Shown here: positions 30,290 to 58,363 of the stretch, in pieces | Layout of the letters: each line of letters opens with the position of its first letter | Numbering within the stretch: the first letter of the stretch is position 1 | DNA from: Trichuris trichiura | Taxonomy: Eukaryota; Nematoda; Enoplea; Trichinellida; Trichuridae | NCBI GenBank assembly: GCA_037903355.1 | Contig: JBAJFE010000018.1 | Coordinates: 744,001-808,000 of the forward strand | DNA: 64,000 nt | Direction: 5' to 3' | The notes under the pieces: model-generated | Told to the model about the DNA's origin: nothing | Seen by the model: only the letters and a program-made list of their open reading frames with translations | Database searches by the model: none | Translations under genes and position numbers: made by a program

Positions 30290-30326
30290 TTGAAAGACAG
30301 GATGTCTTTTAACAGGCTTGAAAAGT

Positions 30327-30374
30327 TTCATAGTAGATCTTCAGATTCACGGGTTTGGCCTGTTGGATGTATCC
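30327..30374 (+). repeat. Left inverted repeat of the Penelope-like element
   Basis: Begins TTTCATAGTAGATCTTCAG and is the reverse complement of 32717-32764 with about two mismatches. Confidence 0.85.
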
Positions 30375-32600: not shown

Positions 32601-32641
32601 ACTGCTGACGACGGAACACGAGCAGTTCCGAAACGTACGGT
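32601..32641 (+). ncRNA. Hammerhead-ribozyme-like motif in the retroelement 3' flank
   Basis: CTGACGA (32605-32611) is followed by stem II CGGAAC/GTTCCG (32612-32617 with 32625-32630), GAAA (32630-32633), CGT, then A. The next bases CGGT (32638-32641) pair back with ACTG (32601-32604), one pair being G-T, to close stem I. This is the layout of minimal hammerheads known from Penelope-like elements, where stem III is almost absent. Cleavage would fall after A32637. Activity is not shown by sequence. Confidence 0.6.
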
Positions 32642-32716
32642 ATACAAATTGTTCTGTACTTTCTCTTACAATTTGCTCATCCATCCGTTGGTAGGGCATT
32701 TTGAAGTTTACTTACA

Positions 32717-32764
32717 GATACATCCAACAGGCCAAACAAGTGAATCTGAAGATCTACTATGAAA
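32717..32764 (-). repeat. Right inverted repeat of the Penelope-like element
   Basis: Begins GATACATCCAACAGGCC and ends in CTACTATGAAA; mirror of 30327-30374. Confidence 0.85.
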
Positions 32765-32771
32765 TTGTAAG

Positions 32772-32990
32772 GTGTAATAGTAATTGAATGAAGCAAATGC
32801 TCTACCAATGAATAGACGAGCGATTGCCGGCAAAAAGTAGAGAACGAAACTAACTTTATTCAAAGCTTTCTGAAAGCTTCGAAAAAAGTAAGTCGCATTC
32901 TGCACTTTCTCCTAATGATCGCTTATCCACCGAGTTGAGCAGCTGTTTTATTTACAGATACTAAGCGGAAAACGGGAAAAGCTTCGGGAA
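32772..32990. repeat. Degenerate fold-back repeat related to 34972-35288
   Basis: The left half carries GCTCTACCAATGAAT and the right half CGCTTATCCACCGAGTTGAG plus TTTACAGATACT, which are inverted, diverged versions of blocks in the better preserved palindrome at 34972-35288. The same block (GCTCATCCATCCGTTGGTAG) also lies in the Penelope-like 3' flank at about 32677. Confidence 0.5.
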
Positions 32991-33344
32991 GATCTTTAGC
33001 GGAGAGGTTGTCCGGAACAGTTCGGTTAAGCTTTCTTACCTTCTATAGCAGAAAGGCTTATACGAAGGAAGCAGTTTGCCTTGACAGGAGACATTTCAAG
33101 CCAAAATTAGCCATCGCTAAACGTTTTGCCATGACCAATGGAAGTATCTGCACTTTCGTGATACGGAGTAAAGAGCTGCATATTATGACTTTAAACTTGG
33201 TTTGACTTCGACGCTCTGCCCTGCTAGCAGATTATATTAGTATAAAAGCTGATGGCGGGGAAGCTTTTCATTGAAAGTTCTGTTTCTTTAAAGGATTCCA
33301 ACAAGCGGATAGAGACAGGGGATATAAAGAATATTTACACTGGG

Positions 33345-34376
33345 TCATTTATTAATTTCGAGAGCGCACACATACAAGAAGTTATCTGGATAACTCATGT
33401 TTAAGTATAGCCAAAGCAGAGGAGCTTCCGCCGGGACGGTGACGCCCTGGCAAAGCAGTGTAACATTGTCAATAGGCAGTTGTCCAAGTCGGTCTCCTGC
33501 TAGCTTTAATAGATCGCTTGCCTTTGTCAATTCACCGTCCTTTCCATCGGATTTGTATGCAGGCCAAAGGCGCTGCACGAAGGCGTAGTCCTTCTAAATA
33601 AGGCAAGCAAAGTATTAATGCAACGCTAGCGCCCTCTGCTGCTACATTAAACAGTTTGATTGGCAGATGTCTAATAGGCTCATCTTCAGAGTTTTGCATC
33701 AGCAAGCGATTCACTTCCCAGAACTGATCGAATCGAGCTGCAATAGAATAAAAACAAAATTGTACACGTAATGCCCCTATGCGTCTATTCGTCGTACACG
33801 TAACCATGGCATTCCAAAGCTGCTTCTGTCCGTGCTTTTGTATGCTGTTCATTACGCGACTTCGGTGCTTTATTTGGTCAGCTTGTTTTACAGTTTGAAT
33901 AAAATGAGCTTCAACGACTTGCAAAGATGAACAGGCAAAAAGCTCGTCGCGAGGATAATCCTAAGATTCGTACGCTTTATTTCATAATAATGAAAAGATG
34001 GCACCGACCTTCACGTGGACAGTAATTTGCCAGAGATCACTGGAACCTTGTTTCATTAAATCGAATAGAAGCCCAACGGGATAATACCAGCGCAACGGTA
34101 TTCCATTGTATTCTAACCAAAATTCAGTCTCAAAGGGCGGTTCTACAAAGGTGGCTATGTATTTGAAAACTTTTCCCGTTACCAGTGGGAAGTAGCTGTT
34201 GCGAGGGACAAGCATCTGAAGACATTAATATTATCGTACAACAAAAGGCAAAACGCAACTCTACGTACGTATATGTTTTTCGGCCGCTCAATGCATGTAA
34301 ATTCGTTCGAGGAGGCGCAAAAGCACACAGGTACTCGGCCCTCCCATACTTGCCTTCGAACGGCGCTATCTTCCAT
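33345..34376 (-). CDS. atg5: ATG5 autophagy protein
   Basis: Five exons: 34376-34269, 34215-34009, 33960-33798, 33737-33646, 33593-33345; 272 residues (human 275). Motifs in order: VWEGRVPVCF; NSYFPLVTGKV; FWLEYNGIPLRWYYPVGLLF; LWQITVHVK; VEAHFIQTVKQADQIKHRS; ARFDQFWEVNRLLM (first residue from the splice is Ser); LPIKLFN; APLLWLYLNMSYPDNFLYV. The lysine aligned with the ATG12 acceptor of human ATG5 is present, also at position 130. ATG5 is conjugated to ATG12 and with ATG16 acts as the E3-like enzyme lipidating ATG8 on the growing autophagosome. Two donors are unusual (GTACGT at 34268 and GTACGA at 33797); the second is forced by the frame into RFDQFW. Start Met is the first before the conserved block. 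Confidence 0.95.
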
Positions 34377-34971
34377 AGCAACGAATAGTCACTTTGAGTA
34401 CTTGCGGCTGTTCGATAGAATCCTGTAGCTTAACAAGTCATTTTACTGTTCGTCTTAAAGCACGGGCAGCGCAAAAATATGGACGAAAGCCTTGTACCAT
34501 TACGAGAGGCATAATGCAGTAACTGTTTGCAGGAATTTTAAATACAATGTTTTGCGGCTAACGTAATTCAACTTTGCCTGCTGGGATACGTCCACAGCCA
34601 GTTTGCATCTTTAAAAATAAGTTCCGCGCGAGAAATAACTCTGAAAACTCTAAAAATTAGAAAAAGTTTACGCAGAGCATTATTTCCTTGCTACGTTTGC
34701 AAAACGCAGTGCCTTCAAGGGCTTTCCCAAAGTAGATAATATTGCTTTTCCCCCGGTCTCCGGCTGTGGTTGAACTTAAAAATTTGGTTAATTTTCGCAA
34801 AGCAAACATAGCGTATGCGCTTGTGTCATACGATAGAAAATACAGTATAGCAAACAGTTAGTTTATAAAATTTTGTTTCGTTTTTCTATCTTTGTGCAAC
34901 AACGCAGGTATGAATTTTTTCCGAGTAGTAATATTCTTGAAAACAGGATGTTGCGTGACGGGCTGATGTTT
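34377..34971. other. Intergenic stretch upstream of ATG5
   Basis: No coding or repeat signal recognised; likely holds the ATG5 promoter (minus strand). Confidence 0.4.
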
Positions 34972-35288
34972 CATGGTTTGTTAGATCTTCTACGGCTTTT
35001 CCTGTTCTTGTCTGCGTTGGTATCTGTAAATTAAACGAAACAATTGCTCTACCAACGGATGGATGAACGATTATTAGGAAAAATTGTACAGGACTGATAC
35101 ACTCAACTTTTATTTTCATAAAATTGACTGAAAACTGAAACTGAAAATAAAAGTTGAGCGTATTGGTCCTGTACAATTTTTCCTAATAATCGCTCATCCA
35201 CCCGTTGGTAGAGCAATTGTTTCATTTAAATTACAGATACCAACGCAGACAAGAACGGGAAAAACCGTAGAGGATCTAACAAACCATG
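34972..35288. repeat. Long fold-back palindrome, two ~146-bp arms
   Basis: The left arm 34972-35117 and right arm 35143-35288 are reverse complements with few mismatches, separated by 25 bp. Outer ends are CATGGTTTGTTAGATC and GATCTAACAAACCATG. The block with GCTCTACCAACGGATGGATGA also occurs in the Penelope-like 3' flank and at 55110-55140, so it is probably a head-to-head pair of retroelement ends. Confidence 0.85.
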
Positions 35289-35376
35289 AATAGTAATATT
35301 AAGCTTAACGAAACTTGCTAAAGATCAGTAGGTGGTCAGTTACTTTACTCTCTTTGGTAATCCCTAATTCCTTGTA

Positions 35377-38300
35377 TAGTAGGCCCTCGTTATCCGTGGT
35401 ATTTCGTTCCAGGACTTCCCGCGTATAGTCAAGTCCCCTGCGCAAAATCTAGAATCATTTGTAAACAACCTACGCACTTTCTCGTATACACTACAAATAA
35501 ACATGAAATTTCTTATAGTTACTAATATCAATCAGTGCTAAATAAATAGTTTAATGAAGAACATATTAAAGGCAATAATGATGTACGATAATCCCAGAAT
35601 ATATTGGAATGCGAATTACTTTCAGAATACACTTTTTTAGCTGTAAGCAAAGTATACTGGTTTTTATTGTTCCGGTATTGCTCCGTTATTTCAGTAAATA
35701 CAAAGTTTGTACGAAACTAAGGACAACACTGTAACAATGAAAACTGCATACTCCACAAGAACTACTACAATCCCGTAAAAAGAAACTCGTTTCAACGCTG
35801 TAAGCGAAAGGTAAAAGCGCTGAACCTCAGCTGACAGCATTGACTCTAGTTCATCTTTAGTAACAATCGTTGCCTGTGCGTTGCCTTCACGTTAGCTAAT
35901 GTTGGTGAGGTAGAAGATCTTTTCGATCCTACGGCCCACTTCAGCACATGACATGCCGCTATTCAAAATATCCAATATCTTTATTTTCTCTTAGAGAAAT
36001 AACACTTTAGGGTCCCCCTCTTTGCGTGTGAAGAATTGCTTCGATCACTCACGTCTTTCCTGTCAGTCATCTCTTATAAATAACTAATGAAAATGAGCAA
36101 ATGGGTTAATTTTGCTATTTGTGATAAACCGAACTGCTCACAACGTTTTTAGAACACTTTCTCATTGCCTGTAATAGCCTGCCAATGGCGGGCTACATTT
36201 GTCAACAGTCTAACACGGTGTCTCTCAAGGCCAGGGTCGCCAGGGCTTCCCTGTGAACGTTTCTGAGCGTTTTGGCCCCCCAATTCTGATTAGTTGATTT
36301 TCAGTGCGCTGATTGGCCGGATGGGAGGACGGAGGGTAGCCAGGACGTCATAATGTGGGTGCTGCACAAAGTTCTACGGGGAAAGCGTTTCCCGGACAGT
36401 GTGACGAACACTTACTTTTTCACCTCCGAGCTAGCTGCCCCCTCCTCCCGGTCCTCCCTTCCAGTCAATCAGAATTACGGGGCGCAGCGAAGAGAAAAAA
36501 GCGCGAGCTGCTAGACACCGAACGGCGTGTTACACAGGTGGCAGTCCGCCAAACGTGAATCATCCTGATACGCGTAGTTGATACGCTCATACTGACGAGT
36601 GCCAGTTTGCGTTCTTCAACAGTAGGTTATACAGTAAAACTTCCCTAATCCGAACGCTTCGGGGCGGGAGGTAGTTCGGATTACGGAAAAATCCAGATTA
36701 TGGAGGAGGCTTACAGTAGGCCACAGAAAAGCAGGTAATGCAATTTTAGATGCATACTCCTGTCGTCTACAGCGTGATGTCAGTCTCTGCAAGCGGTGAA
36801 AAGCTTAACGAGGGCAGCGAAGTCCGTCTGACCAAGGAAAACGACTGTCCAGCAGAAACCAGTTTCTTACATGGCGTGGACGCTGTACCGCGAAGCGACA
36901 TGGAAATAGTTCCCATGAACTTACTTTTGCATACTCGCAGTTGCCGGCCGGCTCTGTTGGCTCGAAAATAAATTGAGTTAGCGGCAGATTATTGCGTTAT
37001 ATGAGAAAAGATTGTAGTTTTATACGACTGAAAAACATCAAGTTTTTTATCCACATTTCTGTTTATTTGGGGAAGCGTAGGTCTCTGTGTGCCTTGCTGC
37101 AGTCAACTTATTGGTCGAGATTGGTTCGGCAGAGCCGTGGCTGGTCTGCGCCTATGCTAACGTATACCGAAAGGATCGTTGGCTGGTTGTTTGTTGCCCT
37201 TATAGCCGTTGCCGCCAAGTGACTGCGCGTTTTGCACAAGTAGCCTAATTATTCTTAATGCGGACGGTCGTTCGATTGTTCTCTTTCACGGGTTGGGATT
37301 ATGGAGGTTCGGATTAGGGAGGTTTTATCGTAATTGTGATGTGTGGTCTGTCATTTTGCTCAAACAAACCACAGGTACCCAGTTGCACAACTCTTTCCAT
37401 ATTCATAATTAACTTTAACGTCTCTGTCCCAGTTAATGGAAGGACTATGGCATACCAAGGCACTTCTGGGTTTTCATAGGGTAAAATGCTCCCGCGACAT
37501 ATGATCTTCAGTGGGCGGACAAGAGAACATTCAGACAAAGATGCAGAGGCGTAAAACTCAGTGAAGCATGAGCTGTTCTGATCAGTAAAACCTTTTACCC
37601 CTTCGTCCGTATCTTGCTCTTAAAGACAGTTACGGGCAACCAGATGTTGCATCTGTTTAATGAACTTCTGCTGGCTGCAGAAGCAGAAGCGTTCCGAAAG
37701 CTTTGATGCAATCATCTTCTGTTATCGCCTAAGCATAAAATTCTTCCCTCAGCCTTTTCAATCTTCAACGATAAACACCCAGGTCGTTTAGCAGTTGTCA
37801 GCATTGAGCAACGACCATCTTGGGTGAACATAATGGAGTGACGGTTCTGACATCGATTTGCACTTTTCACTAATAGAAGTGCTTAAACTATGGTGTAAAT
37901 TGCATTTTTTTTCTACTTGAAATTATTGCACACCAAACGACATTTCAACTTCAGTAGACTGAGCTGTGCTGTTACTTTTTTCAACCTTTGCTGTTGTTAA
38001 CGGACCTCCTAATCTATCAAACAGGCAATAGCTTAAATAAATTTAAAATTTTGCTGCATCAAGCGATCTTACAGGGTTTCTTCAGAAAAGTTATGCAGCC
38101 TTTCTGAGACAGCCAACATTCAAACTTAACTGCTTCTATGGATAAGGATATTTATTACTATTCATAAGCCATTATGACTTAAGAAACTGACTTACAATAG
38201 TATGAGGTACCTAAGCCTAATTTTAGGAAATGAGAAACTAAAAGCATCAGGTGAGTGATAGCTCGTCATAGTAACACGAGATATTAGCATTATGCGCAGG

Positions 38301-38481
38301 TTGAGAAGACATAAGAATAAAAAAAACCATTTTCTCAAGTCACATGATGGAATCCTACCACTACATACACAAAAAAGGATTTATGTTCAGTAGCGATTTG
38401 TTAATCCCTGGTGAAATAAAGTCATTGTTTTCTAAAGACAAATCGCGTTCAATCAAATCCGTGGATAACGAGGGCCTACTG
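35377..38481. mobile_element. Tigger/pogo-type DNA element, non-autonomous, ~3.1 kb
   Basis: The left end TAGTAGGCCCTCGTTATCC and right end GGATAACGAGGGCCTACTG are inverted copies, each next to TA, as expected for pogo/Tigger transposons (TA target site; ends of the CAGTAGNCCC...TTATCC type). No transposase was recognised inside. A second element is nested at 36632-37330. Confidence 0.75.
36632..37330. mobile_element. Nested DNA element with TA-flanked inverted ends
   Basis: The left end CAGTAAAACTTCCCTAATCC and the right end GGATTAGGGAGGTTTTATCG are near-inverted copies next to TA dinucleotides. Length about 700 bp, no transposase recognised. It sits inside the 35377-38481 element, so it is the younger insertion. 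Confidence 0.7.
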
Positions 38482-39011
38482 TATTTCCTTCAGATCTTAA
38501 AAGAATGGATACGTTAAGGATCCAGCCGGAATTCTATTGAAAATTGGCATGAAACGAACTTCCGTTTGCTATTCAGTTGTAGTCTTGGTTTGCTTAGTGC
38601 ACTGTTTATTGAAATGTAGTGATTCTGTGGGTAGTTCATGTACCATGTTTGCTTCAATTTTGCACGCATAGTAAGAATAAGACATCACGATATTATGTTG
38701 GTTTAAGCTCCTTGTTTTTCTGGCGTGAATTTGATCAGTCGAGAAATTCCATTTATCGCTTCCTAAATAGCGCCGTGTGAAGTAGGATTGCTTGAATCAG
38801 TGACGTACAATGAAGGTGGGAAGCTGTTTGCTTTAAATTCTTGCTTTATTTTACACGGCTTTCGTTAGTTGGCGAATACAATTGTCCCAAAGTGAGACGA
38901 ATCCGCTCAAGTAGTATATCTGACGTTGCGTTGAACAAATAGATCCTAGAGAGTCCTAAAGCTGCAGAAATTTTATTTAAGCCTTGTAGTCAAGTCAGAA
39001 CGGTGACAGAA

Positions 39012-42000
39012 ATGCACGCGTTCTTGGTGGTTGCCTTTCTTGTTTTATGCGTAAGAGCAAAAGCTGACAATGTTTAGCATGATCGACTGTGCGAATTGCA
39101 GGAATTACGTGCGGTGCACTCGGAAGATGGTTCTCCGTATACACTTGCGCAGCTAGCAAGTAAGCCAAAACCTCGCGTGAATTTTCCCTGGACTGTTCTG
39201 GTTAAAACGCCGAAAACAAAATGTGTTGGAACTATTGTACGAGCCGAAGACCGCAACAACACTCCGCTAGTGCTAGCGCCATCACAGTGCTTGCTAAGAG
39301 AGGATGACAGGTGCGTTATATTATGTGTATACTCTAATTTCGGAAACTCAAATCTCGCGGCTATTTTGCGAAAGCATTAAACAATTCCCATTGGGTTCAC
39401 TTATGTCTGCTGTATTGGAAACGGCGACAAGCCTGTTTAATGTACCAACAGATACTAATAATACAGTGCTTTCAGGCCCATTTCGACCCGTCATTAGTGT
39501 ACGGATGAAAAGAACTTTTTTCATTATTATTAATGGGTTCAGGTCTTAAGACCGAAGTCGGAAGATCGAAATGACAAAATACTGAAAGTCACAACACAGG
39601 TAGCGGAAATATCGAAAGTCAAATTACCGAAAGTCGTATTATAACCTTCGATATTTTGACTTTCGATATTCCTACCATTCTACATTTCGAGCGTTCAGTA
39701 TTTTGACCATTGGTCCTTTTAACTGTTCAGTGTTTCGACTTGCTGTCTTCGGACTTTCGTCTTTGTGACCTCCGCTGATTATTAGTACATCAATCAGGCT
39801 CGCTATGTTTTCAAATACATTACCTATATATTGGTCGCAAAAGTTTTCTATTGGATTGTATCTTTACTTCGTCCTATAAGAAGAGGGAAAGTCCTTCAGA
39901 ATAAATTTTCTTGTCAGTTGCCCATGTCAGACATATTAGACGATTCCTCCATTTCAAGCCAAATGAATGGCAGGCTATAGGTTGTGTTCAAACAGACGCG
40001 CGTATTACGAATTGGATGGATTACAGGTTAACGACTTTCAATTTTCATTAATCAAATGTAGAATTTTTTGCAATTGGTGTGCAGGTTTCGTATTTGGGAT
40101 CACGGTAAACCCCGCCTTAATTTCAGGGTTAATTTTGAGCGCAGACGTTTTGCTAATCTTTGTGGATCAGCATGTTTGTTGATCAACTGCATTTACTGAA
40201 TGAAAGCTGAATTCTTTATTTTTTGTCGTTCTGAAAAATAGAACAGGGGCAATTTTATAAGCTTTTCGAGAAAAATTAAAACCACGTTGTTCATTAAACG
40301 CTTTATGTGCCTTATCAACTTTTCATTTGTTGTCTGACGCTTTAAAAGTGATTACCTTAGTGCTTAACATGTGAGCACAATGAAGCTAAAATAATGGCAT
40401 TTTTAATTTAGCAGGAATGAAACCCGCCTGGAAATTCCCAGTCTGGTGAAAATTGTTGGCAGTAATTTTTCGTCTGCGGCAAAGAACGTGTACTTATCCG
40501 TGAAAACCGGATATCCAGTGGTTTTTATTAAATTGGAAAATGAATACAAAGGTCCAGCTATCAAAGTAGACAGGGCTGTCTACCCCACTGACAACGTAAA
40601 GAAGTGCTTACTGGTGGGCTTCTCTCCTCGAGGTACACGTTTACCAATAAGCTTTACAGTGAATAGCTTTTAAAACCTAAGGATACGTAAAGCAACTATC
40701 CTTTTTGTCGAATGTATACGTTAATTCTACGCCTAAGGTCCTTTTAAAACGAATGCGCATTCTGGCTACGAAAAGGTGTTTCGTAACAAGAACAATTTCG
40801 TTGAAGCTATCAGTCAGGTATTTTGCTTTGCTGTAGTTCAGCAAGAGACTACTTGTAATCAACCGGGTTAAGAATAGGTTCATTCTTCATAGCTGAATTG
40901 TCCACGCTCAACGCTCTGCTATTGTGGCTTGCCTTGGTTGCAGAATACGTATTATTCCCTACCCAGTTTATGTATACATTGGCAGGCTGGGAAATAGGCG
41001 CACACAAGGCAACGTTTCTACCTTCTAAGTCAAAACATTTAACTGATGGCCTTTTTCAATAGCAGCCTTTTAGTTGGCGTTCATATCGCTGCTGCTTGCT
41101 GCTCGAACTGACTTGGCTCCCGCTGGAGCCAATTTGGTCGCTTTCTAACACGGAGTCGTCGTCGAACTGGTGGGCCAATTTTCCTTCGGTTGTCCTTCAC
41201 TTGTATTCTCATTTGTACGAACTGAATAAAATGCTCCATCCTGGCCACTTAAAAACGACGGTTTATGGTGTTGCCTGACGTAAAAACAGTATACAACTGT
41301 ATGTCTATTTCCCAGCATTTTGCGTAGCAGTGGGTAGTTCCAAAGGCTGAATTGTTTTTCAGTTTTGGTCCTGACTTTAGGTGGCGTAGACTGCTTGTTA
41401 GTAACAGTATAATAGTTTGCAACGCAGTAGCATTTAATCTACGCCAACCTGGCAGCCGATTCAGTCTGAACAGCGAGCAGCAGTGACATCACCATATTGG
41501 GAGCCAGTGAACTTCCCAACCTGATGTAATCACAATTTCTCGCGCTGACAGCCAGTCCTATTGGACCTGTAAGCTGCATGCCGACCGAAGGTCCATTTTT
41601 CACGACATCAGAGTCACTTTCTGTTTGGTTGTTATTGGGAGAGACCCTTTTGTCCAGTTCAATTTATTCAGGCATCTCCGCTACATCATGTAGTAACAAA
41701 GTATTTGCAGGCCTTGGCATGAACCAGCCAAAAGGTTCCTGAAAACAGTTTTGCTAATGCCATACTAAACAAGACTAACAAGATCAAAGTTTCGATTCAG
41801 AACTTGTCGCAACAGTGTGGGTCACGAAACTGATTTAACCCAGATGTTTCAGAGCATAAAATTCCGAATGAACTAAGGTTTTGTAAATGTAACTTCTTGG
41901 TACTGGACCATGTAGTTTTATGTCGAGTTTCTTTTACGGAAAGTTAGTCCCGTTGACAATATTTTTATTCCGGAGCTTTCGGGTCAAAAGAGACCCGTCT

Positions 42001-44677
42001 TCAGCGGTCTCGTTTGACCCGAAAGCTCCGGAATAAAAATATTGCCAACAGGACTAACTTTCCGTAAAAGAAACTCGACATGAACTAAGGTTATGAGAAG
42101 AAAGAAGTAATTAAGAATGCAGGCAAAAGTAGTACTGTAGTTATTGAAGTCGCTCAAGATTTTTACTCGAGAAGTCCCTGAGCGTTTTATACGACGTTTT
42201 AACGATTTATAAATCCTCGAAATCAAGCTTAACAGAGAATATAAAGTGGTTGATTTTCACGCGTTTCAGCTTCCCCTTATAAATCAAAGGTGAACTGACG
42301 AGAATTGCGAAGCTTTCTCACTTCAACTCTGTTTGCAAGCGTGCTTAGCTTCCTTGCTTATCGAAGGTACTCACGGAGGGTTCAGGTCAATAGTTGTAAG
42401 CACGAACAGTGTAGCATCAAAATTTTGCTGCTGGTTATAAAGTACTAACACTATTTTGTATTGAGTTGTTGTCCATGGTTTCCGGACCCATCCACAACTG
42501 TTTGCCATTTTTTGAGCGTTAGAAGCTTCTTGCATGCCTAATGGGGGCACCAACCAGGAAGCATCAGAAAATGCCTTTCGTAGAACTTTCGATAGAAATC
42601 TAATATTACACATTCTCTTAAGGGGGAAGGATTTCCTTCATAAAAGATATTAATAGTAAATAATTCGGCAATGAGACCAAAAGTTTACATGCTAATCTTG
42701 TGCAGTCCTAGCTGATCTATTTGCTAGTATTTTGTGGCATGTAGGAAGGACGTTTCGGACGGAAAGTTAAGGTCGGAAGGATGATGATGGATCCTATTAG
42801 AACGTTATGTTCTATTGATCAAAATAAAGCTTTGATGTCCCACGTCTTTAATATGCATATTTTAGACAAAAAGTGCTGGGCACTTTTCGCAAGGCTGATT
42901 TGGTTCATGAGGTGTCTGTTTAATTTTTCAGAAGCCCAGAAACGGAAAGTGCTGAGCCCCGGCGATTCTGTTCTAAAACAGCGGCTGGAGGAAGAAGTTT
43001 GCAGAAACAGTACGGTTGATGGCGCAGGTGTAAGTTGTTTGCTTCACGTTTACCTTATTTGGCACTCAGTAGTAAGCTGAGAAGCATTAAGAGTATTTTA
43101 AAGACCAGCTGCTGACGCTACCTTATTTTTTATTCATCGGCCGTTAGAAGAAATAAGTGTGTTTGGTCAGCAAAAGTTTGGCCCGTTATTTGATCTTAGG
43201 TTAAATTCAGCGCACTGCATTTAGTCCTACTTCGAGGTACACATTTCTTCACATAATCTTTCGGAGTACGTGACTGATGTACGTCTAAGGTCAGCTGGTG
43301 GTCCAATCAGTCTCGAGTATGTGCAACAGCGCTCTGTGCACAGATTAGAAAAGTCAGACGTTCTGCATGATCTGAACGCTGCTTTTACTTTGTTAAACTT
43401 TCAAAAGAGGGAAAGCAAACACGTTACCGTCGGCAGTTGCTTTTTTTGAGAGTATAGATTGAAAACTAATTGAGTCGTCTGAAGGTTAGAATGACACAGT
43501 GGTTTTCAGTATGTATCGTTTATGTCTATAAGTCACATGCTTTGCGCAGTGAATTAAAGACTGTGACGAAGTGGGCGGTTTGGATTTGAAAAATTAGCCT
43601 CATCTTGTCCGTACTTCAAGAAACTGCTCGCACTTGATCTAATGCGGACGCACAAATTGTACAATGTATAGTTTCCGTCTCGCATTTAGCATTCATTTTC
43701 TATGTAATAGTGAGCCTTTTTAACCGCTTGTCAAACCGGGTAAACGTCAGACCTTTCAAACACGTACTGACAAAAGTTTTGTAAACAGTACCTCTGTTTA
43801 TACGTTGATTTATACGCAAGAAGTTAAGAATGCTTTGTTTTTCATTTCAGTGAGATAAGATTTCTGAAATTAAGAAGAAGCTCACATTGCATGTGAAAAA
43901 CTGGCTTACATTTCAAAAAAGGAATAACAAATTGCAGAGTGTTATGATTTTAAGGTGTGCTATTTATGCAAATGTCTAAGCACCAGTGAAACAGTGTTTA
44001 GGCCTATTCGACTTAAAATACGAAATCTCTTGAGCTTTTCACTGTTATGCTTTTCTGAATAGGTATTTTAAGTAGGAATAAGTATCACAGCGTCTAGCAA
44101 AATTTTTCGTTATGGTTAAGATAAGCAAAACTAGCTGGAATTCGGTATTCTGGCTGCGCAGCAGAAGAGTTGCGTTGGAATCCATCTGTTGAAAGTGAAA
44201 CTTCAACCATGTTTTCTGTTCTGAACAGAGTCCCAAAAACCCACACAACAAAGATGCGCGTCATTCAATACCCGTTTCATTCATGTCATTCCTTAAGCTG
44301 GATAGACGGTATGATACTAAGCGCTTAGTATAGCACCCGAACTTAGCTATATACTTTGTGAGCCTAAATCTGAACACTATGTTTTGAACATTTTTTAGAC
44401 ATTTGAGGGACAAGGCTTGACATGTAAGGCCGATGACGGTCTGTGGACTCTCTACGGTTTTTGCGGTAAAAAAGGGTCTGAGCCCATTCACGTGTCAATC
44501 GAGCCGCTTATCAAACTGATCACATACGCAGCTAGAGAGATGGAGTTGTACAAGAAAGATGAAGTTTTCAAAAGGCGAAAAACTGCTTATAAGAAATCTT
44601 TTCTTAATGGACAAGAAGTATGGGCCGTCACGCTGGGTCGTCGCACGAAAGTTTATTACAGGGAACCTGTTTTGTAA
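39012..44677 (+). CDS. Secreted trypsin-fold (S1A) protein with no catalytic triad
   Basis: Five exons, in phase: 39012-39050 (signal peptide MHAFLVVAFLVLC), 39102-39310, 40415-40632, 42932-43029, 44399-44677; about 280 residues. The fold is visible from PWTVLVKTPKTKCVGTIV, LVLAPSQCLL (where proteases have VLTAAHC), GYPVVFIKLEN (normally NDIALLKL), KKCLLVGFSPRG, VCRNSTVDGAG, then EGQGLTCKADDGLWTLYGFC (normally GDSGGPL-C, W-L-G) and PIHVSIEPLIKLI. His is Gln-75, Asp is Pro-117 or a neighbour, and Ser is Glu-191, so it cannot be a serine protease. A basic ~45-residue extension follows the domain. Homologues lacking the triad act as binding or regulatory proteins; large secreted S1A families are typical of whipworms (inference). 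Donor 43030 is GTAAGT. Confidence 0.8.
39545..39775. repeat. Imperfect inverted repeat with short subrepeats, in an intron
   Basis: Repeated blocks such as CCGAAAGTC, ATATCGAAAGTCAA and their complements (TTGACTTTCGATAT) alternate on both sides of about 39648. The whole can fold back on itself. It lies in the second intron of the trypsin-fold gene. Confidence 0.55.
41920..42081. repeat. Fold-back palindrome, ~70-bp arms
   Basis: The left arm 41920-41990 and right arm 42011-42081 are reverse complements with few differences (outer ends ATGTCGAGTTTCTTTTACGG and its mirror). The centre holds a hammerhead-like core on the minus strand. It lies in an intron of the trypsin-fold gene. Confidence 0.85.
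41971..42007 (-). ncRNA. Hammerhead-ribozyme-like core
   Basis: On the minus strand: CCG, CTGAAGA (42004-41998), stem II CGGGTC with GACCCG, GAAA (41980-41977), GCT, C, then CGG pairing with the leading CCG. Stem I is only 3 bp in this copy. The core matches the CUGANGA...GAAA consensus exactly. Confidence 0.55.
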
Positions 44678-46569: not shown

Positions 46570-48416
46570 TGTTGTTTCCCCTATTACAAGGTCGGGTCTT
46601 ATATTTATTTTTCCTTTAAAAAACATGGCAGGGCTTATTTTCCGGGGTGATGTATTATGATTTCAGGTACCGCACTCTACACTTGTTCATTTATTTATGT
46701 GCAGAAGCCCATACGAAGCTTAAACGTAAAGGACGAAAAATACCGAAACACCTAGAAGAAGAAGAACCATGAATGTAAGGCAAGAAAAATGTACAAATAC
46801 CCACCTACGTTTATTCGAACACAGTCATGTCATCATTTTCTAAGATAATTCTGAATTCCGGCTTGAATTTCTTGCGACTCCATTTCTTGCAGGACCTTTG
46901 AGCCCAGTCTCTCATGTCTTGCAGAAGAGCTCTCCTTAAACGAACATTCCTTGTCCATGCAGCCAGCTCGTAAAGCATTGGCAACACAGCTGTCAGTAAT
47001 TTTGTCCCATGAGTTCTTCACCCAAGTCAAAACGTCAGATTTCTGTCTATTTTATTTTCAATGTAGTAATTGATTTCATTGCGCAAACTGTCTTTGAATG
47101 GCTTTCTTATTCCAGTATCAAGAGTCTGGAAGTACGCAGTCATTCCTGCAGGAATCATTACCTGATCTATTCTTCTCTCTGAAAGAAAGTTCTTCATCTC
47201 TTTAGAGCGGTTAATGCTAGCTGAATCCAGACTATCATTCCTCTTTGGCCACCTCGCAAAATAAGTGGCAGCATTAAATCGACCCACTTACTTATAACTG
47301 ACTGTGTGCAGCAGGCGTTTTCGGTTTGAAGAACATAAATATCTGAAACGTGCACAATTTCGTTTTTCTTTCCCTTTGTAATGATTAGAGGAGGGACTTT
47401 CTTTCCGTCCAAACGAATTGCCAAAATGCAGGTGACGCGAGCACTTTCATAACCAGTAGAAAAAATGTAGATTAACGACGCTCCCCTACGGTCAATTGTT
47501 GTTTGAAGTCTTTAGCCCATAAACATTGCATTTTCATTTATAGCAATCATGTGGGACAGTTTGGATTTAAAAAAATTGATTCTGTCAACAAAAGACTTGA
47601 ACGCGAATGAAGGTTTAATAAGTTCAGTATCTTCAAGCTTGAACAATGTCAATCTCCTTAGTGACAGCTCATGTAGCTGAAGTTGGCTATCCAGCCAGTG
47701 CTTTGACGCTTTGAACTTTTCTGTGAATATCTCTACGCGTGATGCAGTTGCGAGGGTAAGTGCCTGAACGTCAAACCTGCGCACAATGTAAACCTGTGCT
47801 CACCTGTCAGTAATCCATTCACAAATGATGTCTTCAAGCTCGGGAAAAAATGGTTGCCTACTTGATCCACACTTACGCTTCTTTGCATTTCCCTCGTCCA
47901 TTTTTTGACGGAGTTTATCGTACTATGCTCACCATTTTCGAATTATTCGGAAATCAAGTTTTCTTTCTTTGCACAAAGCCGTCAGATTCTTGTCTTAGGA
48001 GTCTTGCACGATTGCTTCCGTGTGCTCAACACTGTAACTCTTTCTTGCCTAAAAGTGACAATATTATTCCTTTTTGCAAACAAAATTGCACTTTTGCACC
48101 AACCTGTTGCGCACAGAATTGCAAAAATCACTTGGAAAATTTGTTCGGGTGGATTGCGTCAAAGATCACTACAAACGCACACGTACCAAAGCACTTTGCT
48201 TTTAAAATCTACAGTACAATAATTCAACCATACACAAGTTGTATATTTCAAGATACAATACGCCCGTCACATTTTCAAGCGGGTTTGCTAAATACGCCTT
48301 TCTGGAGGACGATCGCAACTGGGGTTATTTGCAGGGTAGGGCTTATACTAAAGTGCATCCTAAAAGTAGTGCTAGGGCTCATTTTCAGGGGAGGTCTTAT
48401 TATCGAAGAAACACGG
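46570..48416 (-). mobile_element. Pogo-like DNA transposon with decayed transposase
   Basis: Minus-strand frames 47784-47512, 47424-47194, 47287-47027 and 47030-46833 read in order as one DDE transposase of the pogo/Tigger group: KASKHWLDSQLQLHELSLRR, MIAINENAMFMG, AIRLDGKKVPPLIITKGKK, WVDLMLPLILRGGQRGM, FLSERRIDQVMIPAGMTAYF, and TWVKNSWDKITDSCVANALR. The pieces are in different frames and the first catalytic Asp region reads AINENA (normally MDET), so it is dead. The ends are approximate. Confidence 0.8.
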
Positions 48417-48418
48417 TA

Positions 48419-49608
48419 CAGTCGGCCCTCGTTATCCGTGGGTTCTATACGACGCGGTTTGTCCGGCGTGAGATAGGGACGTCATCTTTTACACGCCAGT
48501 ATACGAGCTAGAGCCTAGAACAGTTTTTGGTTGCTGGAAAAGTTTTTGGGGAGAGGCAGTCTGTGAATGCGAGGACTTAGGTGCCATCGATGAGGAGGTC
48601 ATGGACATAGTGAATATTGCCAAGGAGTTGGGAGGTGAGGGTTTCACCGACATGATAGAAGACGATATCAGGAATCACATAGAAGATTGTGAAGAACCGT
48701 TCACCAACGAGGAATTCGAGGAACCGATGCAATCATCTACGGGCAGTGACGACGACGTTATGGAAGATACAGAAGCTCAAACACCCTCGGATTGGACGCT
48801 GCAAAAGCTTGCCAGTATTTTCCGGCCAGCGCAGGTCTTAAAGAATATGATTGCTGACTACGATCTATCCATGGAACATGGCATCATGGTTTTACGAGGA
48901 ATAGCGGCTTCGTTGAAGCCGCTACAGGATTTATTCGATGAAGCGAAGAAAAGGGAGAGACAGCTCCCTATAACAATGTTTTTAAATAAAGCTCGAGCAG
49001 CTGCAGAGTCTAACATTTTAAGGTGAAATGTTTCGCTACCAACAAGTTCAACAAACCGTAGGACTGGTTGGTCTGCAGGGGATGTGCACCCACCTACAGA
49101 AAATGGGTAAACTGATTCCTGGTGCGTCAAATGTTTCTGCCCTAAACGTCTCGTTCTGTGTGGATATGTTCCGTGTGATGTTCACTATTTCTGCTTAAGT
49201 GCGCCTATGTATTTTATATTTCCCTTGCTCTGTACCCATTCCGCGCACCAGTACATCGCTCAGCTCATTAAAGCAAAGCGATTCCCACTAGTTTAGAGAA
49301 AGGGAATCTTACTTTCATCTTTTCTTGTATCTAACGGCGTGGACTCTGATGTTTAAGCCCATTAGACAAGCGCAGTCTTATCGATATCTTTATCTCGTGG
49401 CTAGCTTCCGTAGTACCAAGCTTCGAAGGATTACTAGGTAGGATAACCGTTGCGGAGGGAATTCAAAGGGGGCAGGAAGAAATACGCGGCTAGAATATAA
49501 GCTATTTGGCCTTTTTCATAGGGTAACCTATATAACGCGGGGCCAGCTTAACGCGGTAAAACATTGTAAATTTTGGACGAATTAACCGCGGATAATGGGG
49601 GCCGATTG
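48419..49608 (+). mobile_element. Tigger-type element retaining a transposase C-terminus
   Basis: The left end CAGTCGGCCCTCGTTATCC and right end GGATAATGGGGGCCGATTG are inverted copies flanked by TA. Inside, the frame 48601-49026 encodes MDIVNIAKELGGEGFTDMI, an acidic stretch and LASIFRPAQVLKNMI, like the acidic C-terminal tail of Tigger/jerky transposases. The DDE core is missing, so it is a deletion derivative. It abuts the pogo-like element. Confidence 0.75.
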
Positions 49609-52341
49609 TATATATTTTTCGTAGCCTTAATGCCCAGTACTAGAATTTATTTCTAGCAGTTAAGTTAGAACTTCATTGCTTCTTTTTGTACATTCTTGCT
49701 TGAATGCCGCTTTTTGTGCACGCTACACCAGAGGCTGCATTAATTTATCGTTTAGAAAAGGGGCTATCTTTTAAGGAAGGTAGAATAGGTAAATATTTCC
49801 ACAAAATATTAATAGTTGCTATGTGCTGTGATTCGAATGCATTTTTGCAGCTGTCAGCTCAAGTTGGTGAAGTAAAATCCATTAGTGCTCATTTTACACG
49901 ATTGTCCATCAGCTTTGTTGTCATTTGAAAGCTAACAAGGTGAGGCAGATGGCAATCTAAACTCTTGGTAGGTCTTAAAGGTTCGCAGATGCACCCAACT
50001 GCTGGCAGATTATAAGGAACAAATAGAAAAACGATGTTTAACTAGTCTGCGCAGGATAGGCAAAATAAAAATATGTTTGCGCATGTAGCAGCCCTCTAGC
50101 GCCTTAACGTTGCGCCTTTGGGTAGTTTGCAATCGCAAGGAAAAAACACAGCGTATCTGGAGGACAGGTGGTATTCTCACAATTGCAGAAATGATGCAGC
50201 GTTAGAAGATCCACTGAACACCAATTTACTCTTTTCTCTCTTTAATGCGGCACGTTTGAAAAACGTGACATAATGGCATCTGCGCATACAAAACAACTAT
50301 TACGTCAAGAAGACGCGGGAAACTATTTATGGAAGCTCTGAGCTAAAGAAAAAAAGCAAAGCTGCTCATAACAGGATTTTCATTGCGGATAAAAGCTGCG
50401 ATGGCGAATTAGAATTCTTATCGTCAGGAATATGTTATATTCAAAGAGTAAGAGTAGCCTTTGCAAAATGTTTGAATTGGTCACATCTAATTCCGTATGG
50501 TCACGGCAGTCACACACCTCTCAATGCAATTAAGCTAAACACTTTTGCTTAACTCTCCGCTTGCATTCAACAAAGAATATGCGCATGCAATTGATAAATG
50601 GTCCATTGGTTAAAACGAACGTTAGTCGTTTTCTTTATTTTCAATCCGCTTGCCAGCCGGTTGGCATACGTTTGGCACGTAGAGCCGTTCCAAAATTACC
50701 AGCAGATTTTTATTTGCTTTTAAACATGCATAACAAAGCATTCGTTAGTTGGGCGGTTTCTACCTTTTCGTTCACGAGCATGAGTTCGGTAGGTTGGCGG
50801 CTGACAGAAATTTATTAATGAAACCGGTTGCATGGCCTTCCCAGTACTAGATAACAACGTGATTTGGCGCGATGCACCCAACAGGTTTCCCGATAGACGC
50901 GTATCTTGACTGCATGCACCCTTTATCAGCCTTCATTCATTGGCATAGCATACTGCTGTTGGTAATACTTGATAGGCATAATCAAATAGGGAGAGCTTTG
51001 GCTGTCAACTAGTGGATGACTACATAAACTGTTTTGTTTAATTTTATACTCAAATGACGTTTATTGACTTAAGTTTACAGCAGCGTGATTTCCCTCCCAC
51101 TTCTGTGTACAATGAGCTACTGTGCTCATGCATTTTACTTTAATATTATTTTCTCAAAGTGGGTTAATTAAAATTTCTTTAAACGTTGAAACTGGCATGT
51201 TTAAGCAGCTTCTTAGCAATGCTTCCACGACGAGACAGTGATTCGTAAATAACGTGGCTAAGCTATGTTTGCGTATTGTTGGCGTATAGCCGACAGCGGG
51301 AAACTAGGGCATTAGTATTAGTGCTTCGTTCGTATCCCGTTTTGATGTGTCAACTTTGAGGCTACTCTCAAATGCTTCTATCAGATAAAGTACTACGTGC
51401 CAGATTCCTACATAGCAACCAAAGGACGTTCTCATGGTAGTCTTGGTCAAGGCAACTGCAGCATGAATAATATGCATGTTTATTGTTTCGTCTGCACGAG
51501 ACAGCCGCTGATGTTCAAGATAATTGCACTTGCTTTCTACAGTCTGCTCCCAGAGTTCACTTACTGCCTCATTAAGTCAGTTGGAATGCTGGTCGTAGAT
51601 GGCCTTACATTTCTTTAGCCTTTTCTCACTAATCCTCACACTCTGATCCGACGAATTTTCCAATGGAATTTTCATGAGTAGTTAGGAATTTATGTATATG
51701 GAGAACTAAACGCCGGATCATTTTTGGTAGCGGTTTTTAGGTGACCTTGATGAGTACCTTTTAAACTTTATTTGGTTTTAATCTCTATCGCAGCAAAGAA
51801 AACTATTAATATGCCGAGGTGCTTGTCCATCGAGTGCATAACATACGATTAAATTTTGTGTCAAATGTTTACTAGACCATGTGCTTCTTTTGCCTTCCGG
51901 TTCATTGAATTTATGTGGTTTTGATATCGGAAGCATAAAATGTTAAAAATTCATGAATCGAATGAAAGTTATATGGTTGGAAAATTGGATTGAGTTTCTA
52001 AAGCCTTTTTTTATGCATAATGCCCCATGCAGAGAATCTAAGTTTTGCCTCATTTTAAGTACTGCTTATTATTTTTGCATGCTGAGTTGGAGGAAAATTC
52101 CCGAAGCGTTCAGAAGGCCGTCTCATTCATCATAGGAGTCATTAAATTACGTTTTCGTGCAATCGAAAATTTGAAGTACCACTCCTTTTGTTGAAGGAGC
52201 ATTCTGCCAACACGCGAGTTTGACGTCCAAGCCGTACGCTACGTTAAGTGGCACTTTACCGCCATATTCTCAAGTACAGTTTCGTTTGCAACAGGACTGG
52301 CAAGTACTACATTGTAAATATTTTTCAGCTGTTGCTTTCGT
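49609..52341. other. Intergenic stretch, nothing recognised
   Basis: About 2.7 kb. The open frames at 49704-49928, 50561-50818 and 51397-51618 show no domain and no plausible splice partners. Confidence 0.4.
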
Positions 52342-53459
52342 ATGATGGCTGAAATTAAGCTGGATGAATCCTCAGAAGAAAGTGGTAAGTCTTATCAAAA
52401 TGAAATTTTTTTCGAACATGATTACTGTCAAGTGAACTAAGCTAACTAGGACGTACAGCGGTCGAACGCTTCAGTCAGCTGGACCGTCATAGATCCAATG
52501 GATCCTTTCATTGATGATGGAATGCTACTTATTGCATGGATTTGTGCAAACATTCGCTGCGAGCGCTTAGTTCAACTGCAACCGAACGTAAACGTAAAAA
52601 TGTTCTATTTCAAACTGCACGTATGCCTGAGTTTTGTTCTCAGCGTTAGTAGTACGTTATTAATAATAAATAGACAGTAAGGAAATGAATTAAAGAATGA
52701 TTAAGTATAATTGGTGCTGGCAGCGAAGGAAAAAACATGTTCTATCTCAAATTGCCATTACTGGCACTCGAGGTGCAATTCCTTATGCATTTATTGCGTC
52801 GAGAGCATTTCGACCGTTCAGCGGGAAAAAAGATAATCAAAGCAAGTTTTCAGAGGATGAAAATTCAACCGTTCGATCTCTCAGCTGCAAAATGCAAAGA
52901 AAAGTATTCAGCATTCTATCGACAAAGAAATGGGCGCGCCACTTTCTCAGCGACGCACTGGTACAGTTTCTTGACCAACTTTACTCCCTTCTAAAGGTTC
53001 AGTATTCGGCGAAGGATTCCAAGAAGGTGATCATTTTTTGATGAATGGCCCAATTGATCAAACGCGCCTATACAGATTGTAAACAATATAATCAGAGTGT
53101 TCGGGAAGGTCTACTTGCTCAGTCGCAGCGAACAACTTTCTCCTGATGAAACGCAAGCGTTAAACGACGTCGAAAGGCAACTGCGCAGTTTCTTCTTAAC
53201 TATCATCAGCTTTCACGATATGGATTATACCTACGATCCTTCGTTTCTTTCTGACAAGCTGGACCGCATATGTGCTGGGCTGACAAGAGTGGTGGATCAC
53301 CATTTGACTGAAAAGTCCAAGGCTCGTATACTTATGGTAGGCAGGTCGTTAAGGAACAAAGAATTCTTGGACTCAATGTACAAGTCCGATTGTCGCTCTC
53401 CAAATGTTGATTCTTTTTTCCTATGTGCAAAGCAACTGATTGACAAATGGGAAACCTGA
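52342..53459 (+). CDS. TNFAIP8 (TIPE)-family protein
   Basis: Three exons in phase: 52342-52384, 52854-53026, 53076-53459, giving 199 residues against 198 for human TNFAIP8. Conserved points: an N-terminal acidic stretch (DESSEESEDE); KMQRKVFSILSTKKWARHFL, matching AQKKLLSKMASK; FLDQLYSLLK matching VLDELYRV; KKIVNNIIRVFGKVYLL; then FFLTIISFHDMDYTYD, close to VVSFHQVDYTFD of the family, and VVDHHLTEKSKARI matching IQRHLTAKSHGR. The family has an all-helical fold around a hydrophobic pocket that binds phosphoinositides or fatty acids and affects cell survival and immune signalling in mammals. The first exon is short, and another 5' exon cannot be excluded. Confidence 0.88.
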
Positions 53460-54077
53460 CGGCATGCTGTGAACGTTTCACTTATCGAATGTAAACCTAA
53501 GAGTAAACGTAACGCTTCCATTGTGATCTTATGCTGTTAATAATAAATATTATTGAAAAAGGGTTGAAAATCCAACGGATGACTGTGAAAGCCAAGGATA
53601 AGTCCTTCGGTGTTTTGTTATTGCTACACGTGCTGGACTACAGCATTGCCGAAATAATAATTTTGAATAATAATTGCAAGTAAGCTGTACTGTCTTTTTA
53701 TTGCCTCATAAAGTTTACAACGGAACTAAAAGATCCAGTCTGCTTGATAAATCTTTGAAACTAGAACCCGATGTATTTAACTAGAAGCGTTATCCAGCCG
53801 ATCGCACGCCAGCACAGGTGAGCTACTTTGCTACAATGAGGGTTCTATTCTCAGTCATAAAAGCTCCAAATGCCGCTTTCAAAATCAGCAGCAGTTGCTT
53901 AATTGGGCATTATTTTTCGTGATTCTTATCTTTATTTACCATAGACACATAGCTTTCTTTAGTTCACATACAAAGACGAAAAGCATAAATGATTATATAT
54001 ATAAATGCGTTTTTATTCTAAAATATTCGCGGGATTTTCTAACCCGTTGTTCATTAAACTTTTATTTAAAAAACGTT

Positions 54078-54118
54078 AACGGAGCTTTCGGGTCTCCGCT
54101 GGACCCGTCATCAGCGTT
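54078..54118 (-). ncRNA. Hammerhead-ribozyme-like core
   Basis: On the minus strand: AACG, CTGATGA (54114-54108), stem II CGGGTC with GACCCG, GAAA (54089-54086), GCT, C, then CGTT pairing with the leading AACG. All core positions match the hammerhead consensus; stem I is at least 4 bp. Confidence 0.65.
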
Positions 54119-54388
54119 TATAAATGCGTAGGTATTATCTTCAACTCCAACTGTTTGAAGATTATTTGCATGCATCTCACATGTAGCAAGCACATGAGAG
54201 CTGCGCATGGATCAAGGCGACTACTTTTGTATCAGCAAGATGCTGTCCTTATCAATGTTCGCAATTCTATTGCGCCTTATTCGAAAAAAGTGGGCATTAT
54301 TCTAAGCACAGTTCAGCTTTAGTAAAGGAGACCCTTATAATAGGTATCAACCGAAATATAGTTTCTTCGTACGGGACCGTATAATTTC

Positions 54389-54446
54389 ATTGGGTTGCTT
54401 CTTTTTCAACGGGGCTCAAAATCCGTATAAAAAGAAGCAACCCAAT
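54389..54446. repeat. Perfect 18-bp inverted repeat, 22-nt loop
   Basis: ATTGGGTTGCTTCTTTTT at 54389-54406 is mirrored exactly by AAAAAGAAGCAACCCAAT at 54429-54446. It may be the tip of a fold-back element or a small hairpin RNA; nothing else points to either. Confidence 0.8.
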
Positions 54447-54739
54447 CAACCGAAATAATAAATGCTCAAGCATACAGCTTATTTATCTATATAATACAAA
54501 TATAGCTTCAATAGCTAAATGCACTTGTAATTTTCAGACAAAAAATATACGTTGCAATAATCCTAATGATGTACAGGAAATATCGAAGGAAGCAGTTTAA
54601 CAGCTTGAAGAACTTGAAAAGATACAAATCTTCTCATATCATTCGGTCATGGTTACCGTTTATGCCAACATAATTCTCATTAAGGGTACGGCATAAATAA
54701 AAAGCTGGGCTTGTTGGTTATACGCTCCAGTGTTTGAGA

Positions 54740-54925
54740 AATGCAGGTTCCTTGCCGGCAGTTGGGCGACCACCCAGTTTTGCTTTTACTTTAGAGCATA
54801 CCGGTTATCTTATTCGGCGCTGACCTACGAAAACAAAAGTTTTATGTTTAGGCTAAGGCTAGAAAGGGCAGAACGGGATGATCGGCAAAATTACAGTACG
54901 ACAGCGGGGTCAATAACCAAAGAAA
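54740..54925 (+). repeat. Dispersed ~200-bp repeat family, copy E
   Basis: GAAATGCAGGTTCCTTGCC, TTTTATGTTTAGGCTAAGG, AAAGGGCAGAACGGGATG, and ACAGTACGACAGCGG, in the same order as the other copies. Confidence 0.6.
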
Positions 54926-55041
54926 CCAGAAAAAGTTGTTGAAAGCTTAACTGTAGCACTTATAGAAGCAAAAGCGTTCTGAATAAGGCAACTAGTTTTT
55001 TTAATCGAAAGAAAACGCAATAAGGGAGCCACCATCCCCTG

Positions 55042-55084
55042 CACCGCTGGCAACGGAACAAGAGCAGTTCTGAAACGTACGGTG
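55042..55084 (+). ncRNA. Decayed hammerhead-like motif next to retroelement-end sequence
   Basis: CACCG, CTGGCAA (normally CTGANGA), stem II CGGAAC with GTTCTG, GAAA, CGT, A, CGGTG. Stem I pairs fully (CACCG with CGGTG) but the core has changes that should kill it. The following sequence resembles the Penelope-like 3' flank at 32640-32720. Confidence 0.5.
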
Positions 55085-55481
55085 TAGAATTGTTTTGTTC
55101 TTCTCTCTAACAATTTGCTCATCCATTCGTTAGCAGGGCATTTTGAAGTTTACTCTCAAATACGCCAAAAAAGCTAAAGCCGTGAACCGAAGATAGTTTA
55201 TGAAACAACCGAAGCCTGTTCAAAGATACGCAGTTTTCCGAAGTGTGCAATTTTGGAAAAATGCTCCTGATCGACTACCTGAAGACGACTTGCATTCAAA
55301 CGAGTAAGAAGATCGCAAGCTTCAAAAGTTTGCAATTTTGCAAAATGAGAATCTAGTATAGGTCTTTCCCAAAGCTTACAAAAAGGAAAAGAAATTTCTC
55401 AAAATAGCAGCAAGCAGAAGAGCTACACCACGCTGCAAGAGGTGCGATGGCTGCAAAAAAGTTTATCGTTTATTCCTTTGG

Positions 55482-57751: not shown

Positions 57752-58172
57752 AGTGTTGCTCATATTGTTCCACCAAGCCAGAGTTTGTGTAGAATAGTAC
57801 TGGGGTAATGAATAGGCAATTATTGTGAGGAAGAAAACGGTTCTCATGCCTGGCAGTTGTTCTGATTTCAGAATGTCGGTAGGACCTCCGAACTTAGTAT
57901 TAACAGATTATTCAATGTGACTTCCTTTACATTCTGCCTTTACGCAACTGTAATGTACAGGCAACATTTTCCATGACAAGCTTGACGCAAATTTGCAAGC
58001 AGAATGCGCTGAATATTTTCACATAGTAGAATTTTTAAAACGGCATAATGCATTCGCATAGAACCGCCTATGTGGATTACACTAAGAACGTGCCTTCGAT
58101 TGATCATCCTGTACGTACTATTATTTTGGCAGCTCACTCAATTCGCACGCCAATCTGATGTCTTACACAACT
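57752..58172. other. Intergenic stretch, nothing recognised
   Basis: It separates the hAT MITE from the hammerhead-bearing insertion and ends with the left copy of that insertion's target duplication (58160-58172). Confidence 0.5.
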
Positions 58173-58363
58173 TAACATTATTGTACGGAAAAGCTACCCG
58201 TTTCTTTTCTCCCTTAGTTGCTCCCCTTCCGCCGTCCCCGTTTTCCGCCCCCCCCCTTTTTTTAAAATAATGTCGGATCCCCTTTAAAACGACCCAAGTC
58301 TCCCGTGGTTTAAAGCACCAGTTCCACATAAGGGGCGGGCCAGCAATCACTCTGTCAATTACC

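Follow-up and report, generated by a model that had tools for sequence, protein, structure and literature searches.

Probable minimal type I hammerheads in the 3' region of Penelope-like retroelements in a whipworm genome

In a 64,000-nucleotide stretch of the Trichuris trichiura genome (hereafter the window; contig JBAJFE010000018.1 of assembly GCA_037903355.1, positions 744,001 to 808,000 of the forward strand) we found four copies of a small motif that, judging from sequence, are very probably minimal type I hammerhead ribozymes lying in the non-coding 3' region (the pseudo-long terminal repeat, pseudo-LTR) of Penelope-like retroelements. The motif belongs to an already described type, the Penelope hammerheads that lack stem III. 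A protein-coding family contains site 1 and, at 55042, a decayed relative of it; the carriers of sites 2 to 4 are short insertions that have no open reading frame (ORF). What is documented is a nematode genome of ~73 Mb in which a Penelope-type hammerhead match, of a type overlooked by the Rfam models in the window, occurs approximately every 17 kb, and in which at least two protein-coding families, with a further three judged from coordinates, carry the motif downstream of the reverse transcriptase (RT). With so many similar copies, a whipworm is well suited to studying the function of these ribozymes.

Site 1 occupies 32600-32642 on the plus strand (core at 32605, predicted cleavage at 32637/32638, 56.8 bits), site 2 occupies 41968-42009 on the minus strand (core at 42004, predicted cleavage at 41973/41972, 57.8 bits), site 3 occupies 54077-54119 on the minus strand (core at 54114, predicted cleavage at 54082/54081, 56.5 bits) and site 4 occupies 58363-58405 on the plus strand (core at 58368, predicted cleavage at 58400/58401, 53.3 bits). 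Each begins with a stem I of 3-4 bp, CTGANGA, an extra C and a stem II of 5 bp closed by a loop of 6-7, and continues with GAAA, NN-T, a single non-G base and the returning strand of stem I. An earlier note on this DNA had placed the four sites under one rule of this kind, and all four are indeed present; it overlooked, however, the C that stands directly after CTGANGA and before stem II in every one of them, and it did not state that two of the sites are on the minus strand. The hammerhead of chrysanthemum chlorotic mottle viroid also has one additional residue, after A9 between CUGANGA and stem II, which is an A in a viroid as against a C in an animal retroelement here. A closed stem III is absent from the motif, with just 2 nt separating A15.1 and U16.1, and at the stem III position there is a self-complementary quartet A-NN-T, which reads ACGT in site 1 and AGCT in sites 2 to 4. 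At the U-H cleavage position, which had not been selected for, one of 29 distinct contexts had G as H17 and the other 28 had C, A or T.

The site at 55042-55084 (plus strand, 35.0 bits) was rightly described in the earlier note as decayed: CTGGCAA replaces CTGANGA, and the site lies in a remnant (55035-55186) of the family that carries site 1, with 78% identity to the surroundings of site 1 over 152 bp. A sixth and strongly decayed candidate was found at 39461-39502 on the minus strand (19.5 bits, E 0.0066). These scores come from a covariance model built from 21 motifs including the four window sites, and since those four are rows of the model, their 53-58 bits (relative to 35 for the 55042 site) are partly so by construction. 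The Rfam hammerhead models had no match in the window at their gathering score, nor at E-values up to 10. Two other Rfam matches, to MIR6135 over the site 2 palindrome and to a plastid model over a palindrome near 35 kb, were below their gathering scores and were rejected.

The earlier note had proposed a comparison with shuffled sequence, and the excess proved large. The hammerhead descriptor matched four times in the 64-kb window and not once in 60 first-order Markov copies of it or in the reversed window, and 400 further simulated windows gave seven matches in total (a mean of 0.02 per window). We then counted matches in the whole genome (72,691,324 bases in 62 contigs), using the same pattern read backwards as the control. 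The strict pattern CTGANGAC..CGAAANNT, in full CTGANGACNNNNN{3,16}CGAAANNT, had 4237 matches versus 70 reversed. The form ending in GAAAGCT, with the AGCT quartet, accounted for 3430 matches (2 reversed) and the GAAACGT form, with the ACGT quartet, for 406 (2 reversed), so that at least 3836 of the 4237 have a self-complementary quartet; the other 14 quartet dinucleotides together had 401 matches, approximately 70 of them expected by chance. With any base but C required after CTGANGA, the AGCT form had 389 further matches versus 14 reversed, making C the extra base in 3430 of 3819 AGCT matches (~90%). Among the 11 non-C matches listed with their letters, the base was T in seven, A in three and G in one.

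The claim in the earlier note that the stems differ between sites while pairing is kept held up in both stems. For the covariation alignment we used 21 of 30 distinct motifs, omitting near-duplicates and setting aside three readings that violated the extra-base rule; the distinct motifs were drawn from 95 copies, some of which are one place counted in overlapping loci. In this alignment 98.8% of the cells of stems I and II were paired. Both sides had changed in 26 cells, compared with a shuffled mean of 7.6, and there were 15 further pair types, neither value being equaled in any of 500 shuffles; five pairs had a change on both sides, a number reached in 13 of 500 shuffles. The covariation score was 0.555 versus no more than 0.163 in slid versions of the alignment. 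Because the 21 rows came from a descriptor that demands pairing, we reran the stem test on sequences not selected for pairing. For stem II these were 60 distinct strings from 100 listed matches among the 3430 of the AGCT form, in which all five positions were paired in 42, four in 14, three in two and two in two; the mean of 4.6 paired positions was higher than in all 2000 partner swaps (maximum 4.23), and the 5' strands GGGTC, GGAAC, GGCTC, GGGAC, GGGCC and GGGTG each occurred with their matching partner strand. In stem I all three positions were paired in 26 of 29 distinct contexts; a swap test on 14 distinct arm pairs gave no swap in 2000 that reached the observed mean.

The carrier of site 1 is a 5'-shortened copy of a family that we designated PLE1, at 30288-32764 on the plus strand. 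Its reading frame is broken between 30940 and 31079, and other copies have longer open frames. The open frame for the N-terminal part of the protein runs from stop to stop at 30266-30940 (plus strand), so it starts before the element, and the frame at 31079-32536 (plus strand) encodes the RT (RVT_1, E 1.1e-10) and the C-terminal part, in which we saw a GIY-YIG-like motif by eye. Site 1 starts 64 nt past the end of this RT ORF and is followed by the 3' tail of the element in a short form (32643-32764, plus strand); the element's own 3' tail is repeated, inverted, at its left end (96% pairing between 30326-30373 and 32717-32764). A search of the genome with the PLE1 protein gave 93 matches (3293 first-look candidates, 88 scored), of which the best-scoring 30, the window copy included, formed our set of PLE1 loci. 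The motif stands at one fixed place after the ORF in 27 of these 30 loci, and the extra C is present in 26 of the 27 motifs there, L016 reading otherwise; the exceptions in the family are L024, truncated within stem II, L021, in which the base at the cleavage position is G, and L035, with stem defects. The fixed place, the target duplications and the inverted tail together bear out directly for site 1 the suggestion in the earlier note that these hammerheads are of the Penelope-associated style.

A second family, PLE2, is 59% identical to PLE1 and has an AGCT motif 76 nt past its ORF. The PLE1 and PLE2 loci were read letter by letter; three further associations were made from coordinates alone, all on C1 and on the same strand, these being an RT match at 484913-486430 with an AGCT motif at 487071, one at 807711-808460 with a motif at 810019 and one at 2535916-2536665 with a motif at 2538176. 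Among the matches listed, these are all of the plus-strand RT matches on C1 within the stretch that the AGCT list covers, and each has a same-strand AGCT motif 0.6-1.6 kb downstream; numerous other RT matches, with long open frames, were listed in the 73-Mb genome. The PLE2 protein has 1308 relatives, and among the best 120 the top named ones were from Trichuris muris and T. suis, while the more distant RT relatives P0055 (PF01541) and P0075 (by name) carry GIY-YIG.

Target duplications of 10-13 bp flank six insertions in the window, and those at the four with hammerheads are 11-13 bp; they were chosen by eye before a computed check, in which the control with an 11-mer at distance 110 was void, as its search zone holds the word itself. 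The site 1 element has TTGTAAGGTGTA on its left (30276-30287) and right (32765-32776). Site 2 lies in a short palindromic insertion without an ORF at 41881-42079 (minus strand; arms 41917-41995 and 42006-42084, 95%), which is flanked by ATGAACTAAGGTT at 41868-41880 and 42080-42092. Site 3 lies in a short insertion without an ORF at 54011-54118 (minus strand), flanked by TATAAATGCGT at 54000-54010 and 54119-54129, and site 4 in another at 58173-58522 (plus strand), flanked by GTCTTACACAACT at 58160-58172 and 58523-58535; at its left end the site 4 insertion repeats part of its tail in inverted orientation. The two remaining insertions are palindromic and have no hammerhead: a PLE2-like tail at 34936-35290 (no strand assigned), flanked by TAGTAATATT, and a tail-only insertion at 54359-54444 (no strand assigned), flanked by ATCAACCGAAATA. 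In the first of these, 23 bases separate the two arms (34970-35118 and 35142-35290), and in both arms the likeness to the tail in L001 and L042 starts at the first base past the predicted cut. The 3' half of site 2 is partly repeated as an inverted copy at 42005-42028 (plus strand).

Palindromic arrangements of this kind are common in the genome. We noted the orientation of motif neighbors within 1 kb in two lists, one of the first 100 sites with the ACGT quartet and one of the first 100 of the non-C AGCT form: for ACGT 12 pairs faced outward, one inward and one was on the same strand, and for the non-C AGCT form nine faced outward and none inward, giving 21 outward pairs, one inward and one same-strand in both lists combined. 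These outward-facing palindromes bear on the mode of Penelope insertion. Tail forms, which we counted by eye, were short in 14 of 27 PLE1 copies, longer by ~36 nt in 11 and otherwise in two, and the window copy of PLE1 has the short form on its right and the long form, inverted, on its left.

Some insertions appear to begin at or near the predicted cut. Insertion boundaries determined by BLAST put seven distinct arms in six insertions at -4 to +2 of the cut, and by the letters at the junctions the boundary is at about -5 in L036 and about -2 in L065; many further BLAST boundaries mark where the likeness between families stops rather than where an insertion ends. We treat insertion starts at the cut as a lead for single insertions only. 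Two inverted PLE1 tail pairs found by pattern match elsewhere in the genome are candidates for such starts, one at C27:720501-720646 (which differs from the motif at -1) and one at C2:2790889-2791033 (which differs at +1), in both arms of each; approximately 109 bases lie between the matched words of each pair.

We considered whether something other than retroelement ribozymes could account for the motifs. The core is short, and 6 of the 400 simulated windows had at least one match, as would be expected if the sites were chance matches to a degenerate descriptor; however, four sites against a mean of 0.02, the 3430 to 2 ratio of the commonest form and the location of all four sites inside insertions with target duplications leave practically no probability for this explanation, which the counts had already refuted. 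A DNA transposon with hammerheads in its terminal inverted repeats was suggested by L042, where a transposase ORF (DDE_1/HTH_Tnp_Tc5) is enclosed by two hammerheads in 118-nt inverted repeats (99%). The transposase element there nevertheless has its own ends (TA plus CAGTAGAACC) inside the palindrome, the outer flanks, read by eye, are not TA but GTAGCCTAAT / GTAACCTAAT, a duplication of 10 bp whose copies differ at one position, and the same palindrome occurs without a transposase in L043. Because of its own inner ends and the outer flanks we took L042 to be a nested insertion, and on this one copy, with the transposase element nested within the hammerhead palindrome, we rejected a DNA-transposon origin as very improbable. 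The nested element, at L042:603-3201 in the center of the palindrome, is a Tc5/pogo-like DNA transposon with a 537-residue open frame (DDE_1, E 3.1e-48).

The motif might instead be a fossil, a former ribozyme that is inactive today and merely copied along with its elements, which we consider unlikely. Divergence anchored on the ORF in 29 PLE1 loci was 1.05% for the motif itself, 1.37% for the spacer that precedes it, ~3.6% downstream and 0.92% at the ORF end. That the motif diverges about as little as the spacer is what a fossil would show, as is the lack of a genome-wide peak of insertion 5' ends at the cut, and palindromic insertions would be expected to fold the ribozyme into a long hairpin. 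On the other side, pairing and an invariant core are kept across families with different stems (in rows chosen on the core), the extra base is the same in most AGCT matches, the motif is found downstream of the RT in two families by letters and three by coordinates, and it is less diverged than both flanks together (p 0.00014 in the same 29 loci). It is the downstream flank that produces this difference, and because copies also break off or align wrongly there, we do not claim purifying selection; an estimate that favored the motif (1.3% versus 5.1% and 13.6% in the flanks) was dropped as biased, the copies having been chosen for having the motif. The statement in the earlier note that the variation reflects selection on structure and not copying therefore stands between families, whereas within PLE1 the evidence is mixed.

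Several results weigh against our preferred reading of the motifs as hammerheads of Penelope-like elements. In keeping with the divergence values, current purifying selection on the PLE1 motif was not clearly shown. PLE1 insertion 5' ends at the cut were not in excess genome-wide by exact-pattern counts, which gave three for not A at -1, three for not T at -2 and three for A or G at +1. In predicted folds, from energy models that contain no knowledge of the hammerhead core, the double hammerhead was poorer in energy than both the unconstrained dimer minimum and two monomers in six of six sequences, and in six of six monomers the extra C paired with the G of GAAA. With regard to the protein, Pfam searches up to E 10 with three copies gave RVT_1 and no GIY-YIG (one of the three RT copies also had three stray weak matches), and matches to solved structures were few and weak, being to bacterial-type RTs with E-values of 0.0004 to 0.002; it is the architecture of the elements that would place this RT in the Penelope clade. 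Finally, a study of the Anolis element reports that insertion in vitro did not need cleavage (PMC11167929). The same study reports no reads starting or ending at the cut and a ribozyme that needed the protein for cutting.

Minimal hammerhead variants in Penelope-like elements were reportedly described by Cervera and de la Pena in 2014, and such hammerheads are said, in the title of a 2017 paper by Lunse, Weinberg and Breaker, to 'cleave RNA as dimers'. Reviews describe thousands of minimal type I hammerheads, with most of helix III missing, in many metazoan genomes, some of them mapping to Penelope pseudo-LTRs (PMC7761336, PMC7229834), and one review calls their role a mystery (PMC7761336). 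The Trichuris motifs share with these Penelope hammerheads the type I form, the near-absent stem III, the place in a pseudo-LTR, thousands of copies per genome and the proposed dimers (as summarized in PMC7761336 and PMC7229834), and differ in the nematode host and in the C that follows CTGANGA in ~90% of AGCT matches. They also differ in position from the Anolis motif, which overlaps the start of the ORF (PMC11167929), as opposed to ~65-75 nt past the ORF end in Trichuris. In a limited search of literature titles and the starts of abstracts we found no report of natural hammerheads in nematodes, which does not show that there is none.

The insertions fit this picture as well. Penelope elements are described as having an inverted pseudo-LTR, an optional tail, a short duplication and mostly head-to-head palindromes (PMC3846280, PMC11167929). 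With the Penelope/Poseidon-type elements (Penelope of D. virilis, the Pen families of Adineta vaga and PAc of Anolis), as presented there, the Trichuris elements share the RT ORF, the inverted 5' pseudo-LTR and the optional tail at one end, together with short target duplications and head-to-head palindromes (PMC3846280, PMC11167929); they differ in that at least two families occupy one 73-Mb genome and that short ORF-less insertions carry the ribozyme. Metazoan retrozymes and newt satellites have in common with the Trichuris copies type I hammerheads in tandem units of a few hundred bp, such as those in L044 and L045, and the amphibian hammerheads are described as having a weak stem III and acting as dimers (PMC7229834). 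In Trichuris, unlike these, only 2 nt separate A15.1 and U16.1, and the four sites of the window are dispersed and not in arrays.

A mechanism can be proposed from these features. Element transcripts would carry one or more motifs, with stems I and II forming in cis or between copies, and the RNA would cut itself after the base that follows T16.1. Since A-GC-T and A-CG-T are too short to close on themselves and yet are self-complementary, cleavage probably occurs in dimers: a joint stem III of 4 bp could form between two motifs, whether these lie in tandem on a single transcript or on separate RNAs, to give a double hammerhead, a structure described for newt and viroid RNAs (PMC6155905). Such cleavage might serve to cut multimeric or read-through transcripts to element-length RNA, and the ORF-less insertions of sites 2 to 4 are probably mobilized in trans by element-encoded enzymes. 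More speculatively, and we would not expect it to be right, the AGCU or ACGU stem III could join two element RNAs, and this pair, bound by a dimer of the Penelope protein, could be copied from both nicks of one target, so that the ribozyme would serve to pair RNAs in addition to cutting them; the cut RNA would be the template in some events, for example at 34936-35290. If true, the copying of paired RNA would explain why outward-facing palindromic insertions are common here.

A short tail motif, ACGGG..CCGT (CCGC in L044), was seen by eye after the hammerhead in the window insertions at 41881-42079 and 58173-58522 and in L004, L043 and L044, and is perhaps a signal for the reverse transcriptase. 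An AC dinucleotide run lies inside the tail of the site 4 element (window 58451-58492). Tandem units with one hammerhead each were found in L044 (475 bp, 4331-5572) and L045 (218 bp, 3972-4407); both have an inverted copy upstream and resemble retrozyme arrays. Elsewhere in the window, the product of a 149-residue ORF had identities of 97%, 85% and 67% to proteins of T. trichiura, T. suis and T. muris, respectively.

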